NCBI GenBank assembly: GCA_025462805.1
Contig: JAOAPJ010000150.1
Coordinates: 1-5,772 of the forward strand
From: Acidobacteriaceae bacterium
GTDB lineage: Bacteria > Acidobacteriota > Terriglobia > Terriglobales > Acidobacteriaceae
Reading direction: 5' to 3'
DNA: 5,772 nucleotides
The notes beneath the pieces are model-generated. The model saw only the letters and a list, made by a program, of their open reading frames with translations, ran no database searches and was not told the origin of the DNA. The stretch's first letter is position 1. The number at the start of each line of letters is the position of its first letter. Of this stretch, positions 1-5,772 are shown one piece after another. The position numbers and the translations under genes were made by a program.

Positions 1-492
1 CCTAAGTGGAGCAACGCAATCGAACGCGATCGCGCACGCACCTATTTCCAGGCCTATGCGGCTGCCACGGCGCTCTATTTCGTGGAGAAAGCGTTGGCAG
101 AGTTGCATGCCGGCCGCACCCGCACCTTCACCGACTTCAAGGTGCCGGAGGAAGCCATTGGGTGCGGCTTCCACGAGGCAGTGCGCGGCGTGCTCTCGCA
201 TCATGTCGTCATTCGCGACGGCAAGATTGCCAACTACCACCCGTATCCCCCGACACCTTGGAATGCGAATCCGCGTGACATCTACGGCACGCCCGGACCC
301 TACGAGGATGCAGTCCAGAACACCCCGATCTTCGAAGAGAATGGGCCAGAAAACTTCAAGGGTATCGACATCATGCGCGCGGTGCGCAGCTTTGATCCCT
401 GCCTTCCTTGCGGCGTTCACATGTACCTGGGAGATGGCAAAGTGCTTGAAACCAGGCATTCTCCGATGTTCGGGACAGGAGCCCACAACTGA
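1..492 (+). CDS. hhyL: [NiFe]-hydrogenase large subunit, C-terminal part (group 1h / Hhy type), 5' truncated by window edge
   Basis: Frame 1 is open from the first base and gives the last 163 residues of a [NiFe]-hydrogenase large subunit, the subunit that holds the Ni-Fe(CN)2CO site and oxidises H2. The decisive motif is DPCLPCGVH at partial residues 132-140 (Cys134 and Cys137). This is the L2 motif whose two cysteines bind nickel (and iron) and whose His marks the usual cleavage site. A 23-residue tail follows the His (MYLGDG... to ...GAHN), so the gene encodes an unprocessed precursor, consistent with the endopeptidase gene at 3881. The YPPTPWNANPRD stretch (82-93) is typical of large subunits. 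The group 1h assignment rests on the tail, the downstream DUF5947/DUF6084/DUF6893-like set, and recollection of family sequences, not on a search. The N-terminal L1 CxxC motif and the small subunit would lie upstream. The stop overlaps the next start (TGATG). Confidence 0.93.
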   Translation, partial: PKWSNAIERDRARTYFQAYAAATALYFVEKALAELHAGRTRTFTDFKVPEEAIGCGFHEAVRGVLSHHVVIRDGKIANYHPYPPTPWNANPRDIYGTPGPYEDAVQNTPIFEENGPENFKGIDIMRAVRSFDPCLPCGVHMYLGDGKVLETRHSPMFGTGAHN

Positions 493-1070
493 TGGCGGCG
501 ATTGCGGATCCGGTCGCCGCGGCTGCCACCGCCAGCCCTCCAGACACACGCGGAAGACGGGAGTTCCGCGCGCACACGGAACGTGTCGAGCGATTGGTAG
601 CCCGCCTCAACAGCTCGGCTGATCCCGACCTGCGGGCCACTGCTCTTGAACTCCTGCAATGTGTCCTGGAACTACACGGCACCGTGCTCGAACGCATGAT
701 CGACAGCGCTGCGCAGACTGCTGCTGGTGAAGCAGCACTCAACCAAGCGCTCACGGATGATCTCGTACAGAGTGTGCTGCTGCTGCATGGACTGCATCCC
801 GAGCCGATCGAAAGCCGTGTCCGACGAGCCCTTGATAGCGTGCGTCCGTATCTGCGCTCTCATCACGGCGATGTTGAGTTCGTGAACCTGCAGGACGGGG
901 TTGTGCATCTGCGGCTGGTGGGGAGCTGTGGTAGCTGTCCGTCTTCTTCGATCACGCTCAGAAATGCTGTCGAAGAGGCTCTCTACGCGGCAGCGCCAGA
1001 CATAGTTGAGGTCGTCGCCGAAGACAGGACTGCGGCGCCCAGCGACCCGAAGCTCGTGGTCCTGAAGTAG
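492..1070 (+). CDS. NifU C-terminal-domain protein (Fe-S scaffold-like hydrogenase accessory)
   Basis: The protein has 192 residues. Residues about 107-175 form a NifU C-terminal (Nfu) domain: a helix (ESRVRRALDSVRPYLRSHHGDVEF), a beta segment, then GSCGSCPSSS with Cys146 and Cys149 in the CxxC that binds a [4Fe-4S] cluster at a subunit interface. Known Nfu proteins pass Fe-S clusters to target proteins. Here the likely client is the Fe-S small subunit of the hydrogenase, which is an inference from position. The first ~105 residues are not a standard NifU N-terminal scaffold. They comprise an Ala/Pro-rich leader and then predicted helices (about 28-100) with one Cys (57), so this is a domain combination particular to hydrogenase operons. 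The ATG overlaps the hhyL stop by one base, with AGGAG at 477-481 ahead of it, so translation is probably coupled to the large subunit. The cytosolic location is inferred from the lack of a signal peptide. Confidence 0.9.
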   Translation: MAAIADPVAAAATASPPDTRGRREFRAHTERVERLVARLNSSADPDLRATALELLQCVLELHGTVLERMIDSAAQTAAGEAALNQALTDDLVQSVLLLHGLHPEPIESRVRRALDSVRPYLRSHHGDVEFVNLQDGVVHLRLVGSCGSCPSSSITLRNAVEEALYAAAPDIVEVVAEDRTAAPSDPKLVVLK

Positions 1071-1083
1071 AGTTCGATCGAAA

Positions 1084-1088
1084 GGGAG
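1084..1088 (+). promoter_or_regulatory. Shine-Dalgarno of the 44-aa small ORF
   Basis: GGGAG lies six bases upstream of the ATG at 1095. It decides between that start and the in-frame ATG at 1089, which directly abuts the site and is too close for normal initiation. It is the main evidence that the small ORF is translated. Confidence 0.65.
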
Positions 1089-1094
1089 ATGGCA

Positions 1095-1229
1095 ATGGAA
1101 ACGACGAGGGCGAAGCCTACTCCGGCACCGTACCCCACTGGCGGCCGTAAGGCTTCAGACGCCACTGGCATCAACGTTGATCAGCGCCGTCCTATTGATC
1201 CCCGCATGCCGAACGCGCCGCCTGCATAG
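1095..1229 (+). CDS. Small 44-aa Pro/Arg-rich protein of unknown function in hydrogenase operon
   Basis: This short ORF fills the only sizeable gap between the NifU-like and DUF5947-like genes. The 44-residue product starts METTRAKPTPAPYPTGG and ends RRPIDPRMPNAPPA. It has no Cys, no Trp, no membrane segment and no signal peptide. It is hydrophilic, basic and proline-rich (9 Pro), so probably disordered. A good Shine-Dalgarno (GGGAG, 1084-1088) sits six bases before the ATG. The ORF starts 24 bases after the previous stop and ends 12 bases before the next start, and its stop codon overlaps the next gene's AGAGGA ribosome-binding site (1228-1233). This spacing is what a real operon member would show. 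I cannot name a family. The tail resembles what I loosely remember of short conserved ORFs in Hhy operons, but this is unverified. It could be a docking peptide for a maturation factor or a small subunit; the sequence does not decide. Confidence 0.7.
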   Translation: METTRAKPTPAPYPTGGRKASDATGINVDQRRPIDPRMPNAPPA

Positions 1230-1241
1230 AGGAACAGCCGA

Positions 1242-1901
1242 ATGAGTGAGCCCGCTATCCCCGCGACGGATCGCAATACCATTCCTTCGGTTTTGCGCCA
1301 GTTCGCACGTCCACGCTCCAGCGTCGAGCGATGCGAGCTATGCAGTGCTGAGCTTGCCGCTGCCCACTCTCACTTGCTGGAGCCGGCGAAGCGGCAGATC
1401 CTCTGCGCCTGTGAGGCGTGCTCCCTACTGTTCTGCGGTTCCTCGGATGCTCGTTATCTTCGCATTCCCCGCCGCATCATAGCGCTCGGTGACTGTGCTA
1501 TATCGGATCTGCAATGGGAGTCGCTGATGATTCCCATAAGTCTCGCCTTCTTCTTTCAGGACACCGCTGCCGGCAAGGTTCGCGCCATGTACCCCAGTCC
1601 TGCCGGCGCTACGGAGTCATCGCTCAGCCTCGAGTCATGGGAAGAGATTCGCACCCAGAACCCTCTCCTGCAATCGATGGAACCGGACGTGGAGGCCTTC
1701 CTGGTCAACCGAGTCGGCGGCAATGCCGAGTACTTGCTGGTCCCCATCGACACATGTTTCCATCTCGTCGGTCTCATTCGTCTGTACTGGAAGGGGCTAT
1801 CCGGAGGGACCGAGGTCTGGCAGCACATTCAGCAATTCTTCGCAGCGTTACGCGCTCGCGCGGGCTATGCACCTAAAGCCACGGAAGTGCTGCATGCCTG
1901 A
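1242..1901 (+). CDS. DUF5947-like cysteine-rich hydrogenase-operon protein
   Basis: The protein has 219 residues and its function is unknown. The N-terminal third carries Cys31-x2-Cys34, His42, His44, Cys55, Cys57-x2-Cys60 and Cys65. Two CxxC knuckles about 22 residues apart resemble a zinc ribbon or rubredoxin-type metal site. The rest (about 90-205) looks like an alpha/beta domain with a conserved-looking core (EYLLVPIDTCFHLVGLIR, 163-180) and a C-terminal helix. From memory this matches the DUF5947 family, which is annotated beside NifU-like and DUF6084 genes in actinobacterial hydrogenase operons. A metal-binding maturation or electron-transfer role is inference. The chosen ATG has AGAGGA at 1228-1233, eight bases upstream. 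The last eight bases overlap the next gene (ATGCCTGA), indicating coupled translation. There is no signal peptide or clear membrane segment, so it is probably cytosolic. Confidence 0.85.
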   Translation: MSEPAIPATDRNTIPSVLRQFARPRSSVERCELCSAELAAAHSHLLEPAKRQILCACEACSLLFCGSSDARYLRIPRRIIALGDCAISDLQWESLMIPISLAFFFQDTAAGKVRAMYPSPAGATESSLSLESWEEIRTQNPLLQSMEPDVEAFLVNRVGGNAEYLLVPIDTCFHLVGLIRLYWKGLSGGTEVWQHIQQFFAALRARAGYAPKATEVLHA

Positions 1902-2559
1902 CCTCCAGTTCCACATCGAGGGCTCTGAGGCGGTGGCTCACGCGGCCGCCCCTATGCTCGCGCTTAAGCTGCGCATCACCAGCAAACCTCCCACTGAAGC
2001 GATCCATAGCCTCTCGCTGCGCTGCCAGGTGCAGATCGAGCCCACCCGCCGCCGCTATGGTTCGACTGAGCAAGAGATGCTGCGCGACCTCTTCGGCGAG
2101 CCGGACCGCTGGAGTCGCAGCGTGCGATCCATGCTGTGGATGAACACGAACATCACTGTACCCGGTTTCAGCGAGAGCACATTGGTTGACCTGGAACTTC
2201 CCTGCACCTTTGACTTCAACGTTGCCAGCACGAAGTACTTCCACGCACTTCAATCGGGCGAGATTCCACTTTGCATTCTGTTTAGCGGCACCGCCTTCTA
2301 CCAGACTGAGGATGGCACTCTCCAGGTCGCGCACATTCCGTGGGATCGAGAGACTAACTACCGCCTTCCTGCTGCTATCTGGCACCAGATGATGGATGAG
2401 CACTATCCGAACTCAACCTGGCTGCGCCTTGATCGGGAAACGTTTGATCGCATGTATCGATACAAGGTGCGGCACGGCATTCTGAGCTGGGAGAAGCTGC
2501 TGGATGCCCTGATTCCCAGCGAAGACTCTCGGGAAGAAGAGGAGCGCCTGCCGGCATGA
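1894..2559 (+). CDS. DUF6084-like hydrogenase-operon protein
   Basis: The protein has 221 residues and no known function. I recognise it by memory as DUF6084-like, a family found next to DUF5947 in group 1h hydrogenase operons. The sequence begins MPDLQFHIEGSEAV and continues with a beta-rich region (LALKLRITSKPP, then SLSLRCQVQIEPTRRRY). It then has a LFGEPDRW segment (residues 66-73) and alternating hydrophobic strands such as LVDLELPCTFDFNV and PLCILFSGTAFY. The C-terminal part is Trp-rich and charged and ends with an acidic tail (EDSREEEERLPA). No catalytic motif or metal-binding cluster is visible; there are three scattered Cys residues. An upstream in-frame ATG at 1723 would give 57 extra residues read out of frame from the DUF5947-like gene. 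I reject it because GGAAG (1883-1887) sits correctly before 1894 and the protein aligns from MPDLQF in what I remember of the family. It overlaps the next gene by ATGA. Confidence 0.85.
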   Translation: MPDLQFHIEGSEAVAHAAAPMLALKLRITSKPPTEAIHSLSLRCQVQIEPTRRRYGSTEQEMLRDLFGEPDRWSRSVRSMLWMNTNITVPGFSESTLVDLELPCTFDFNVASTKYFHALQSGEIPLCILFSGTAFYQTEDGTLQVAHIPWDRETNYRLPAAIWHQMMDEHYPNSTWLRLDRETFDRMYRYKVRHGILSWEKLLDALIPSEDSREEEERLPA

Positions 2560-3884
2560 ACTTCGCACACGCGGAAAAGATCGCTGCCGCAGTCCTCTAC
2601 GAGGGCTACATGTTGTATCCCTATCGGGCTACATCAACGAAGAATGTGCAACGCTGGAACTTCGGCACCCTCTACCCGCAGGACTATGCGCTCGCACAGC
2701 ATCCGGTTGAGTCGTTCCGCCTCTCAGCGGAGTGTCTCGTCGAGAGCACACCAGATACAACGTTCGATATCCGGATCCGGTTCCTCCATCTCGTACGTCA
2801 GCAGGCGCAGGAGGCGCCGCATTGGGATGCTGGGGTGGAGCGTACAGTCGAGTTCGCCAGCCGTCGCCTCACTGAGCTCAGATCCGCGCCCTTGCAGCAT
2901 TCATTCTCATTTGCAAAAGGGTCTTCGGAGACTGACCGCCATGCTCCGGCCCGCCCCATAAGCGGTGAGTGCACCGTTCGCGTGGAGGCGCTCGCAGACG
3001 GATTGCACAAGCTTTGCCTTGAGCTCACGAACGTCACCCCTGGGGGGCAGCCCGCGGATTGCGAGCGCGGGATAGTGATGCTAAGATCCTTTGTCTCCGC
3101 GCATGTGCTGCTGGGTGTCACTGCCGGAGCATTCATTTCGTTGCTTGATACGCCGCAAGACTTCCGGGCGCCTGCAAACAACTGCCAGAACATCGGCGTG
3201 TTCCCTGTGCTGGTTGGTACCCCCGGCGAGAGCGCCACCATGCTTTGCTCGCCGATCATTCTCTACGACTACCCGCAGATCGCGCCCGAGAGTCTAGGCG
3301 ACTTCTTTGATGGTACAGAGATGGACGAGATGCTCGCGCTTCGCGTACTCACACTTACGGACGAAGAGAAGCGGGAGATGGGGAAGACGGATGATCGAGC
3401 GCTCCGCATTCTCCAACGTACGGAGTCCATGCCAGCGGAGCACCTCGCAAAGGTCCATGGGGCTATCCGAGGCATGCGCGTCGTTCCATCTGCTAAACCG
3501 AGCCCTGAGGTAAGTTCCCAGGTAGATCTCACGCCCAGCGAGCGGGATCCGTTTGCCGATCGTCCCGCAGTGGAGAGTGTCCATGCGTTTGGAGTGGAAC
3601 TGCGCGTCGGTAGCCGTGTCCGTCTCTGGCCGCAGAAGAAGGCCGACATCATGGACATGGCGCTCGAGGGTAAAGTGGCGGTCATCGAAGCAATCGAGCA
3701 AGACCTTGAGGACAGCATCCAGCTTGCGGTCGTGGTGGATGACGATCCTGGCCGCGAATTCGGCATGCTGCGTCAGCCGGGCCATCGCTTCTTCTTCACT
3801 CCCGATGAGATTGAGCCTCTCTCCGATGCAGCGATGACGTCCTCGGCCTCCGCGATCGAACCCTTCTCTCCGAGGACCTCATGA
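2556..3884 (+). CDS. Conserved hydrogenase-operon accessory protein, 442 aa, with C-terminal beta-barrel-like domain
   Basis: The protein has 442 residues and its function is unknown. The N-terminus (KIAAAVLYEGYMLYPYRATSTKN... through NFGTLYP, about 8-41) is a distinctive conserved-looking motif. The middle (about 55-235) is mostly beta strands and a few helices, with scattered Cys at 60, 139, 154, 169, 210 and 231. An acidic helix-rich stretch follows (about 248-310, GDFFDGTEMDEMLALRVLTL). After a disordered linker (about 312-342), residues 345-422 form a compact module. It has GSRVRLWPQ, then ADIMDMALEGKVAVIEAI, a run of strands ending in VVVDDDPGRE, then the QPGHRFFFTPDEIEPL signature. This looks like an SH3- or OB-like small barrel. 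I recall the same C-terminal module in large hypothetical proteins of actinobacterial hydrogenase loci. It is coupled on both sides by ATGA overlaps, with GAGGAG at 2539-2544 upstream, so it is made together with the maturation endopeptidase. A scaffold or chaperone role is inference only. Confidence 0.85.
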   Translation: MNFAHAEKIAAAVLYEGYMLYPYRATSTKNVQRWNFGTLYPQDYALAQHPVESFRLSAECLVESTPDTTFDIRIRFLHLVRQQAQEAPHWDAGVERTVEFASRRLTELRSAPLQHSFSFAKGSSETDRHAPARPISGECTVRVEALADGLHKLCLELTNVTPGGQPADCERGIVMLRSFVSAHVLLGVTAGAFISLLDTPQDFRAPANNCQNIGVFPVLVGTPGESATMLCSPIILYDYPQIAPESLGDFFDGTEMDEMLALRVLTLTDEEKREMGKTDDRALRILQRTESMPAEHLAKVHGAIRGMRVVPSAKPSPEVSSQVDLTPSERDPFADRPAVESVHAFGVELRVGSRVRLWPQKKADIMDMALEGKVAVIEAIEQDLEDSIQLAVVVDDDPGREFGMLRQPGHRFFFTPDEIEPLSDAAMTSSASAIEPFSPRTS

Positions 3885-4411
3885 ACTCCTCCATCCTGGT
3901 CGCTGGTGTCGGCAACATCTTCCTAGGGGACGATGCCTTCGGTGTGGAGACCGTGCGAGCCCTCTCGGCGCGGCCTCTTCCAGTAGGCGTCTCAGCAGTG
4001 GACTTCGGCATCCGCGGCTTCGATCTTGCCTTCGCTCTGCTTCATCCCTGGTATGCCGTCATCATTGTCGATGCTCTTACCCGCGGGGAGGCACCGGGCA
4101 CACTCTACACCCTGCGACCCGACCTGACCGCCACAGCCGGTGCTTCTTCGCCGGACATGACTCTGAATCCGCATGGGATGGATCCGATGCGCGTCCTGCA
4201 CCTTGCTCTCTCTATGGGGCCAATCGAGGCGCAGGTCTATGTTCTCGGCTGCGAACCGGAGGACTTCGGCGACGAATTCGAAGGTCGCATGGGACTCTCA
4301 GCAACCGTTCAGGCGTCAGTTCCCGAGGCAATCGCGATGCTCGAGGCGCTTGCCGGCAACCTCCTGCCCACCCCTGGCGCAGATGCTCCGGACGCAATGC
4401 TCACAACTTAA
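3881..4411 (+). CDS. [NiFe]-hydrogenase maturation endopeptidase (HupD/HybD/HyaD type)
   Basis: The 176-residue product matches the family's usual length (about 160-210). These nickel-dependent proteases remove the C-terminal tail of the large-subunit precursor once nickel is in place, allowing the active site to close. The N-terminus shows VAGVGNIFLGDDAFGVETV (residues 7-25). The three residues that recognise nickel in E. coli HybD (Glu16, Asp62, His93) correspond to Asp18, Asp64 (in VIIVDALTRG) and His98 (in LNPHGMDP). The APGTLYTLRPD and GCEPEDFG segments are also family-typical. The Glu-to-Asp change at the first ligand is common in related proteases. The substrate is almost certainly the HhyL precursor of this operon, which has a 23-residue tail. 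The start overlaps the preceding stop (ATGA) with GAGGA at 3872-3876. I give no symbol because the family has many names and none is certain for this subgroup. Confidence 0.95.
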   Translation: MNSSILVAGVGNIFLGDDAFGVETVRALSARPLPVGVSAVDFGIRGFDLAFALLHPWYAVIIVDALTRGEAPGTLYTLRPDLTATAGASSPDMTLNPHGMDPMRVLHLALSMGPIEAQVYVLGCEPEDFGDEFEGRMGLSATVQASVPEAIAMLEALAGNLLPTPGADAPDAMLTT

Positions 4412-4423: not shown

Positions 4424-4522
4424 ATGAAACTTCTATTTGCCGCTCTCGGCATTTTCGCCGTTGTCACTCTGGCAGCGGTAACTCCCGACCTGCGTCGCTA
4501 CCTGCGCATTCGTTCCATGTAG
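4424..4522 (+). CDS. Small 32-aa single-pass membrane protein (DUF6893-like)
   Basis: The peptide starts MKLLFAALGIFAVVTLAAVTP and ends DLRRYLRIRSM. Residues about 3-20 are a hydrophobic helix long enough to span the membrane. The C-terminal tail is strongly basic (Arg24, Arg25, Arg28, Arg30), so by the positive-inside rule the tail should face the cytoplasm. There is no AxA-type signal-peptidase site with a mature domain behind it, so it is a membrane peptide and not an export signal. GGAGG at 4413-4417 precedes it at ideal spacing. It lies 12 bases after the protease stop and 27 bases before hypA. From memory, very short proteins with a hydrophobic helix and a PDLRRYLRIR-type tail occur in this place in Hhy operons and are annotated DUF6893; I could not check this. 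It might anchor or tether a hydrogenase or accessory protein to the membrane. Confidence 0.78.
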   Translation: MKLLFAALGIFAVVTLAAVTPDLRRYLRIRSM

Positions 4523-4897: not shown

Positions 4898-5586
4898 CCA
4901 CCACCCCTCGACTCGTCGAAGTACGGGCAAAGGCGCTCAAGCAAAATGACCTGCTGGCCCGTGAACTGCGCGATGAGTTTCATCGCAGCGGCGTCTACGT
5001 TGTCAGCCTAGTGTCCAGCCCTGGTTCAGGTAAAACTGCATTTCTCGAGAAATTGCTGTCGGGCCTCAGTGCCAGCCATCGGGTTGCCGCATTGGTGGGC
5101 GACTTAGCAACGCAAAACGATGCTGCCCGCCTGAAGCGTGCCGCCACGCAAGTCCGCCAGATCACCACTGGGACTATCTGCCACCTCGACGCACAGATGG
5201 TGCGCAAGGCACTTGAAGGCTGGTCATTGGGAGCGCTGGACTTTCTTTTCATTGAGAACGTCGGCAATCTTGTCTGTCCGTCCAGCTATGACCTTGGCGA
5301 ACAGCTACGCCTGGTCCTGCTCTCCACGACCGAAGGTGAAGACAAGCCTCTTAAGTACCCTACTATCTTCAACGGGGCCGATGTCGCAATCATCACAAAG
5401 ATAGATTTGGCGGCCGCTGCCGAATTCGACTTGGACACCGCTCGCCGCAACATCCAGATGGTTCGGCCGGGTATGCGAGTGCTCGAGGTCTCATCGAAGG
5501 CCGGTCAGGGCATGGACGCTGCCATTGCGCTGCTTGAAGAAGAGCGCGCTTCGGCACTCCATGCGGCGACCTATCGGGGAGTCTGA
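4894..5586 (+). CDS. hypB: Hydrogenase maturation GTPase HypB (nickel incorporation)
   Basis: This is a 230-residue SIMIBI-class GTPase. Motifs in order: SSPGSGKT (41-48, P-loop); VGDLATQNDAARL (68-80); GTICHLDA (93-100) with Cys96 and His97; ENVGNLVCP (121-129) with Cys128; EGEDKPLKYP (148-157); ITKIDL (167-172, guanine specificity). Cys96, His97 and Cys128 correspond to the G-domain metal site at the dimer interface (Cys166, His167, Cys198 in E. coli). HypB hydrolyses GTP during HypA-assisted nickel insertion into the large subunit. It is shorter than the E. coli protein because the N-terminus lacks both the CxxCGC high-affinity nickel motif and any His-rich storage stretch. Nickel capture must therefore rely on HypA and the G-domain. 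The ATGA overlap with hypA and the family-typical start VEVRAKALKQND support the chosen ATG. There is no strong ribosome-binding site, so translation probably depends on coupling. The 3' end overlaps the converging gene by 16 bp. Confidence 0.97.
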   Translation: MTTTPRLVEVRAKALKQNDLLARELRDEFHRSGVYVVSLVSSPGSGKTAFLEKLLSGLSASHRVAALVGDLATQNDAARLKRAATQVRQITTGTICHLDAQMVRKALEGWSLGALDFLFIENVGNLVCPSSYDLGEQLRLVLLSTTEGEDKPLKYPTIFNGADVAIITKIDLAAAAEFDLDTARRNIQMVRPGMRVLEVSSKAGQGMDAAIALLEEERASALHAATYRGV

Positions 5587-5772
5587 CCCTGCGGTTTCAC
5601 CCCCAAGGGCGTAGCCGGGGGGCGATCTTCCGGCGGCACGGCATTAGCGCGAACTGCGGCTGTCTCGATCACCATGTTTACTTCGGCTCCCAGCAGCAGC
5701 ATGGTCCCTGTCACGTAAAGCCATGTCAGCAGCACCATGACTGCGCCAAGCGAACCATACGTTTTCGCGTAA
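5571..5772 (-). CDS. YihY/BrkB-family membrane protein, C-terminal fragment (truncated by window edge)
   Basis: The minus-strand frame reading from 5771 down to a stop at 5571-5573 gives the last 66 residues of a larger protein. The visible part starts YAKTYGSLGAVMVLLTWLYV and continues through a hydrophobic segment to LLLGAEVNMVIE. This is the hallmark last transmembrane region of the YihY/BrkB family (once misnamed ribonuclease BN). A hydrophilic Pro-rich tail follows (about residues 37-66). These are multi-pass inner-membrane proteins with poorly defined function. The 5' part is outside the window, hence no start codon here. The gene converges on hypB and the 3' ends overlap by 16 bp. It has no known link with hydrogenase and probably marks the end of the operon. 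Confidence 0.88.
   Translation of the reverse strand, partial: YAKTYGSLGAVMVLLTWLYVTGTMLLLGAEVNMVIETAAVRANAVPPEDRPPATPLGVKPQGQTPR
5600..5621. terminator. GC-rich hairpin just after hypB, possible terminator without a T-tract
   Basis: CCCCC (5600-5604) can pair with GGGGG (5617-5621). Inside it GGC (5608-5610) pairs with GCC (5614-5616) around a GTA loop, with AAG bulged. The stem begins 14 bases after the hypB stop, where the operon should end. There is no T-run after it, and it lies in the coding 3' end of the converging gene, so it may be only a consequence of coding sequence. No better terminator is visible. Confidence 0.25.

Follow-up and report, generated by a model that had tools for sequence, protein, structure and literature searches.

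Is the short open reading frame (ORF) lying between a NifU-like gene and a DUF5947 gene in the hydrogenase operon of an Acidobacteriaceae bacterium a real gene and, if so, what could its product do for the enzyme? The window, by which we mean the whole stretch of 5,772 nucleotides analysed, opens on the + strand with the C-terminal 163 residues of HhyL, the [NiFe]-hydrogenase large subunit (1..492, Pfam PF00374), which is placed in group 1h by its similarity to hhy loci. There follow, on the same strand, a NifU-like protein of the HhyE type (492..1070, PF01106), the small gene (1095..1229), a DUF5947 protein whose translation contains CxxC motifs (1242..1901, PF19372), the DUF6084 protein of the hhy operon (1897..2559, PF19562), a 442-aa protein with no match in the Pfam and NCBIfam search (2556..3884), relatives of which were seen in most of the hhy loci examined, and a hydrogenase maturation protease of the HycI/HyaD type (3881..4411, Pfam/NCBIfam). 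A tiny ORF of 32 aa with a hydrophobic N-terminal stretch belongs to DUF6893 (4424-4522, + strand, PF21833, E 1.2e-11), and DUF6893-type ORFs are also found near hhy genes in L026, L041, L051, L053 and L187-L190; it would be worth testing whether DUF6893 is a membrane-spanning partner of Hhy. HypA and HypB were also identified in the window by Pfam, and its far end holds, on the − strand, the convergent end of an ORF that runs off the window and is membrane-protein-like in translation (5571-5771). The locus of C. necator pHG1 shares the order HhyL-NifU-DUF5947-DUF6084-(hypothetical)-protease, and its large subunit, part of what we take to be a group-1h hydrogenase, is 88% identical over the window HhyL fragment. 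In a tree of HhyL, the nearest neighbours of the window are L189 and L188, from two genomes of the order of Edaphobacter, followed by Edaphobacter and Granulicella. Two further observations concern the loci compared: in L051, L053, L058 and L073 (Verrucomicrobiota) the DUF5947-DUF6084-442-protease block lies 5' of HhyL and HypB/HypA lie 3', unlike in the window; and in L081-L083, L085 and L236 the ORF in the small-subunit position, just 5' of HhyL, is annotated 'hydrogenase expression protein HypE', probably a misannotation.

The frame of the small gene is open on the + strand from ATG 1095 to TAG 1227-1229 and encodes a product of 44 aa, METTRAKPTPAPYPTGGRKASDATGINVDQRRPIDPRMPNAPPA, which conservation, codon pattern, locus and AlphaFold modelling place in an unnamed, hhy-linked family of predicted disordered proteins. 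The preliminary description had argued for a gene from a clear ribosome-binding site, tight flanks and a stop overlapping the signal of the next gene, and all three are there: a Shine-Dalgarno sequence, GGGAG (1084..1088, + strand), stands 6 nt ahead of ATG 1095, the stop codon of the NifU-like gene lies 24 nt 5' of the start and the ATG of the DUF5947 gene (1242) 12 nt 3' of the stop, and the TAG overlaps AGAGGA (1228..1233, + strand), the ribosome-binding site of the DUF5947 gene. An alternative in-frame ATG at 1089, which would give 46 aa, abuts the Shine-Dalgarno sequence; the database relatives P0001-P0006 are each 44 aa long and thus share the start position of ATG 1095. The length of the ORF carries no weight, since the window contains 48 ORFs at least this long (44 aa) and 39 correspond to no assigned gene; an SD-like sequence precedes the first start codon in 2 of these 39. 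Promoter- or terminator-like sites were not found between positions 400 and 2000 of the window, and an RNA element was discarded, as no Rfam model matched at the gathering score.

What raises the ORF above chance is its conservation, together with a bias of the changes towards third codon positions. The codon test was run on the last 28 codons and counted 4/2/17 changes at codon positions 1/2/3 between the window and L117, 3/3/17 between the window and L118 and 4/1/15 between L043 and L049; the N-terminal part is visibly variable. Most changes fell at the third position in 20 of 21 DNA pairs, which have sequences in common and are therefore not independent, and the Nei-Gojobori omega ranged, where finite, from 0.04 to 0.38; synonymous changes were saturated in three pairs, and the pair L026-L111 differs by one change, which is nonsynonymous. 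Codon test and alignment together indicate purifying selection on a conserved C-terminal module of 28 codons, GRKASDATGINVDQRRPIDPRMPNAPPA (1143..1226, + strand), preceded by a variable N-terminal part (residues 1-16, 1095..1142, + strand) that stands, in alignment A3, in place of the HxxGTxKGEE..EPGR module of longer members. We also looked for the outcome that had been named beforehand as speaking against a gene, namely a frame and tail without conservation and substitutions spread evenly over codon positions, and did not find it. The frame and the tail are conserved and, by this codon pattern, the ORF is judged to be a real gene under selection, as the preliminary description had proposed. 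The opposite reading, in which the ORF would be a chance frame, or would serve as a leader peptide or to couple the translation of the NifU-like and DUF5947 genes, can appeal to the shortness of the ORF, given the 39 random ORFs of such length in the window, and to the overlap of the stop with the next ribosome-binding site, which resembles that of coupled genes; it has to face, however, a conservation of amino acids spanning six phyla, the third-position bias and the fact that related peptides turn up in five or more slots, the one upstream of HhyS included. We consider it very improbable, conservation and codon pattern having ruled out the chance ORF and the coupler.

The product belongs to a family of hypothetical proteins. 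Its seven close database relatives are 44-53 aa long (E 3e-18 to 9e-9) and, contrary to the expectation that most gene callers would miss such a gene, all seven are already predicted proteins in the database, one of them titled 'hypothetical protein'. A hidden Markov model (HMM) built from the near relatives found 21 members in 80 hydrogenase loci, from Acidobacteriota, Verrucomicrobiota, Planctomycetota, Chloroflexota, Actinomycetota and, in one case, Myxococcota; 7 of the 59 loci without a member hold too little of the operon to be judged. A profile search of 5.8 billion proteins returned 3447 candidates, 2621 of them at E<=0.01, and the names among the best 120 of these 2621 are always 'hypothetical protein'. 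Against NCBIfam, 29 family members gave no match at E<=1; in Pfam, two models were each hit by a single member, no better than chance (best E 0.0067); and the family matched no PDB chain at E<=10. Moreover, no description of the family was found in the literature, including the accessible parts of PMC6883350, PMC12976888, PMC5364354, PMC8027828 and PMC6776052. The family itself is new and falls into a familiar category, that of the small accessory proteins encoded in enzyme operons.

The RRPIDPRMPNAPPA tail, to which attention had been drawn at the outset, is in fact the conserved part of the protein. The majority C-terminal core of the family reads T-G-I-N-x3-R-x-P-I-D-P-x-M-P-x-x-P-P-A, and the window form fits its broader version, T-G-[IV]-N-x3-R-x-P-[IV]-[DH]-P-x-M-P-x-x-P-P-[AP]. 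Across 52 non-redundant members, the T is retained in 47, the P of MP in 47, the penultimate P in 45, the I of PI in 42, the M in 36 and the D of PID in 33, while the last residue is A in 33, P in 8 and G in 6, the window form ending in P-P-A. In alignment A2, residues T24, I26, N27, P33, I34, D35, P36, M38, P39, P42 and P43 of the window form occupy columns that are conserved in 90% or more of the rows, and all 11 are within its last 21 residues. The motif is wholly absent from four of the 52 members (L174, L179, L218 and L220), of which L179, L218 and L220 are nevertheless in or near hhy loci, and 11 further members, including P0004, deviate from the strict pattern of the motif end. The N-terminal module HxxGTxKGEE..EPGR occurs in the longer members only and is missing from the window form, from P0001-P0006 and from L188 and L189. 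What defines a member is the C-terminal core, the part that tracks hhy. Relatives that have only the N-terminal module were observed away from hhy (L174 7867-8262, L235 6601-6834 and L237 1-195), in the form HxxGxxKGEE..GR..RPxGTS and with the PIDPxMP motif absent, so that part of the family does something that is not hydrogenase-specific. The relative in L174 adjoins genes for a molybdopterin oxidoreductase (formate-dehydrogenase-like) and a 4Fe-4S protein; a link to formate dehydrogenase as a general rule was rejected, as L174 lies beside such genes and L235 does not.

To what extent is the family tied to the hydrogenase? In evenly drawn genome samples, the family and HhyL were found, respectively, in 4 and 13 of 297 Acidobacteriota, 1 and 2 of 145 Verrucomicrobiota, 6 and 17 of 151 Chloroflexota and 9 and 22 of 188 Actinomycetota, that is, in 20 and 54 of 781 genomes when the four phyla are pooled; 4 of the 20 carriers are centre genomes that had been picked as carriers, and the carrier counts are lower bounds, since no more than 21-43 candidates were scored per genome. 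Eighteen of the 20 carriers are among the 54 HhyL genomes, and the other two, G727 and G902, carry the family gene in fragments of hhy operons. The gene lies in a locus of group-1h (Hhy) [NiFe]-hydrogenase in 19 of the 20 carriers. G776 counts among these on the strength of an HhyS-like ORF that adjoins the gene on a short contig and matches the ORF beside the gene in G736; the relative of G823, also counted, adjoins the protease gene, has no C-terminal motif and gave a first match with one internal stop. The exception is G907 (locus L174), whose motif-less relative is the one beside the molybdopterin oxidoreductase genes. An order-level sample contained 13 carriers in 249 genomes (three of them shared with the phylum sample), with hhy genes in all 13 loci, and later profiles, in three HhyL genomes, added a diverged copy (G203) and copies without the motif (G828, G843). 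Overall, 42 of 43 non-redundant family genes lie among hhy genes or at most about 2.5 kb from them. The linkage to hhy spans six phyla, which bears out the term 'hydrogenase-associated' used of the peptide before these genomes were compared.

The position within the locus is less constant. The 43 genes occupy the slot between NifU and DUF5947 in 22 cases, between DUF5947 and DUF6084 in 6, between HhyL and NifU in 3 and others in 12, among which three are beyond the protease and one is upstream of HhyS; L218 and L220 lie about 2.5 kb past HypA. When only catalogued hhy genes are counted as neighbours, 33 of the 43 have DUF5947 as the nearest on one side or both. A constant locus with a variable slot makes it more likely that the small gene is tied to the products of the operon than to a regulatory position. 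All seven carrier genomes in which copy number was determined have one copy per genome. In a Chloroflexota locus, L180, a small acidic hydrophilic ORF (5880-6152) was seen between the family member and HhyS.

The presence of the family follows the HhyL tree. On 113 rows, 39 of them with the gene, 11 presence/absence changes were counted, as compared to a minimum of 26 and a mean of 32.4 in 200 shuffles of the labels. The tree is a quick one that leaves many forks unresolved; in it, only 27% of the columns are filled for the window, and a locus is scored as 'lacking' when the sequence stretch covered shows no copy. After relabelling L178 (G776), whose gene is on another contig, the count was 11 against at least 26 in the shuffles, and with the motif-less L179 and L218 also counted as non-carriers it was 9 against at least 25. 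All rows carry the gene in a 13-row clade that includes the window and in a 10-row clade extending over Actinomycetota, Chloroflexota and Myxococcota, and none does in a 20-row clade of Pseudomonadota and a 16-row clade of Acidobacteriota. One locus, L001, has an HhyL fragment 94% identical to that of the window and yet is without the small gene; it was left out of the tree because its contig ends before the 442-aa gene. As a separate observation, the HhyL frame of L191 and L099 (G217) has 484 aa against 604 in the close relatives G001 and G101 and sits on a long branch, possibly due to a frameshift or an assembly error.

Many hhy loci are without the gene, namely 74 of the 112 in the tree set as labelled, the mislabelled L178 included. 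Whole-genome searches of 50 out of the 59 genomes lacking a local copy, with no more than 125 candidates scored in each, gave nothing at E<=0.01 in 49 and a weak relative of the N-terminal module in one; the loci of L022 and L056, which were outside this search, have no copy. Since 49 of the 50 genomes have none elsewhere, the Hhy enzyme does not seem to need the small protein. The gene occupying the NifU slot overlaps that of DUF5947 in C. necator pHG1, in Kitasatospora, in Streptomyces fungicidicus and in a Mycobacterium intracellulare plasmid, and in Methylocystis parvus the gap between NifU and DUF5947 is 69 nt with nothing annotated; a profile search found no copy in the loci of pHG1, Kitasatospora, the M. 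intracellulare plasmid and Methylocystis parvus. In S. fungicidicus a borderline candidate without the C-terminal motif is present beside the hhy operon (E 0.01), and the S. cattleyicolor plasmid has a copy. With no clear copy in the C. necator pHG1, Streptomyces fungicidicus, Mycobacterium plasmid and Methylocystis loci, the small gene would not have been met in the better-studied genera. A fusion to another hhy protein was also considered and discarded, a motif scan of all ORFs in the non-carrier loci being negative (7 of the 59, incomplete, were skipped). Among 21 gene families, each present in at least 8 of the 112 loci, none strongly tracks the small gene, the lowest two-sided Fisher P, uncorrected, being 0.006, reached both by HypB and, with a negative association, by an uncatalogued family; hence no partner is singled out.

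The chain itself is predicted to be disordered. The window peptide has a GRAVY of -1.1, a best 15-residue window of -0.54 and neither Cys nor His, in agreement with the early remark that it lacks a hydrophobic core, and all 54 members of A2, one of which has a Cys, lie on the disordered side of the Uversky charge-hydropathy line. AlphaFold2 gave no confident fold for the window protein (mean pLDDT 67.7, pTM 0.17) or for a 74-aa member (mean pLDDT 54.5, pTM 0.14). The conservation seen in A2 is that of a motif, set in a chain for which no fold is predicted. With no Cys or His, binding of a metal or cluster by the window form is unlikely.

On this basis we tentatively favour, at somewhat less than even chances, a disordered accessory protein of the Hhy operon whose C-terminal motif would dock on a folded hhy product and help assembly or the attachment of an electron acceptor. 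The module T-G-I-N-x3-R-x-P-I-D-P-x-M-P-x-x-P-P-A would be the working part, and the window form, missing the N-terminal module of its longer relatives, has this C-terminal module alone. Rich in proline, the module may bind in extended form along a groove of the folded partner; a docking peptide, as suggested in the preliminary description, fits the data and is the mechanism that we prefer. The most likely target would be HhyE, the NifU-like protein, or DUF5947, either of which would make a sensible partner, and binding could help to assemble the hydrogenase or to join it to its electron acceptor. A bolder version, in which this undescribed disordered family, inherited with Hhy clades over at least six phyla, would itself be the physical link between HhyE/DUF5947 and the enzyme in electron transfer or assembly, or part of it, the window protein being a minimal form reduced to the binding motif, is rather doubtful.

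Other roles have to be weighed against docking. The frequent slot between the NifU-like and DUF5947 genes, in an operon with a protease and hyp genes, would suit a chaperone of maturation or assembly, working on apo-HhyL/HhyS or on HhyE while the cofactor or Fe-S is inserted and forming no part of the finished enzyme; this is rather unlikely, as the window form, with neither Cys nor His, would hardly carry a metal of its own, and the operons of C. necator, Methylocystis and others do without the gene. The related suggestion of a maturation cofactor, made in the preliminary description, has gained no positive support, considering the same missing residues and the many hhy operons without the gene. 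Hydrophilicity and disorder as high as those predicted here are also what would be expected of a hydrophilin-like protectant, a disordered chain co-produced with the hydrogenase under starvation or drying that would shield proteins without having a specific partner, and the same N-terminal module does occur in relatives away from hhy, one of them beside the molybdopterin oxidoreductase genes. A generic protectant, however, would not be expected to show a position-specific C-terminal motif under purifying selection, its copies are almost only in hhy loci, and the window form keeps the motif and not the N-terminal module; we regard this role as unlikely. Even less probable is a stoichiometric small subunit of Hhy that would wrap the surface of the enzyme and keep its oligomer, or its link to the respiratory chain, stable: inheritance with HhyL clades across phyla and the single copy in all seven carrier genomes fit it, but the family has no match among the sequences of solved chains, is absent from sister clades with closely similar HhyL and has no hydrophobic stretch that could serve as an anchor.

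Comparison with known systems places the docking candidate near several small or accessory proteins and identifies it with none. HucM is a non-catalytic extra subunit encoded with a high-affinity hydrogenase (Huc, group 2a); the small protein is likewise non-catalytic and encoded with a high-affinity hydrogenase, but of group 1h and not 2a, and it has no PDB match at E<=10 and no hydrophobic segment. HypC and HybG are, like it, small proteins of hydrogenase operons; HypC works through its N-terminal Cys, whereas the window peptide has no Cys, and no Pfam or NCBIfam match ties the family to HypC/HupF. Pup and UBact, of about 60-70 aa, disordered and with a conserved C-terminus of the Gly-Gly-Gln/Glu type, resemble the family in size, disorder and conservation of the C-terminus, but most members of the small family end in P-P-A or P-P-P and there is no Pfam match. 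DUF6893 is also a tiny ORF in the same operon, but with a hydrophobic N-terminal stretch, another sequence and an entry already in Pfam. There is also a likeness to hhaABC of Thermomicrobium roseum, to hhyE and to the PHG067-like genes of mycobacteria and Ralstonia, conserved genes of unresolved function beside hhySL in the same kind of operon, although the 44-75 aa family is not described in the accessible parts of the papers that report them (PMC6776052, PMC6883350), and no copy is annotated or was found in the C. necator pHG1 and Mycobacterium intracellulare plasmid loci.

Consumption of H2 by M. smegmatis requires HhyE, and the handover of electrons from group-1h hydrogenases to respiration is unresolved (PMC6883350), while these enzymes have been hypothesised to drive much of the soil uptake of atmospheric H2 (PMC7174314). 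A conserved small protein that tracks the Hhy clades offers a component of this system that is directly testable.
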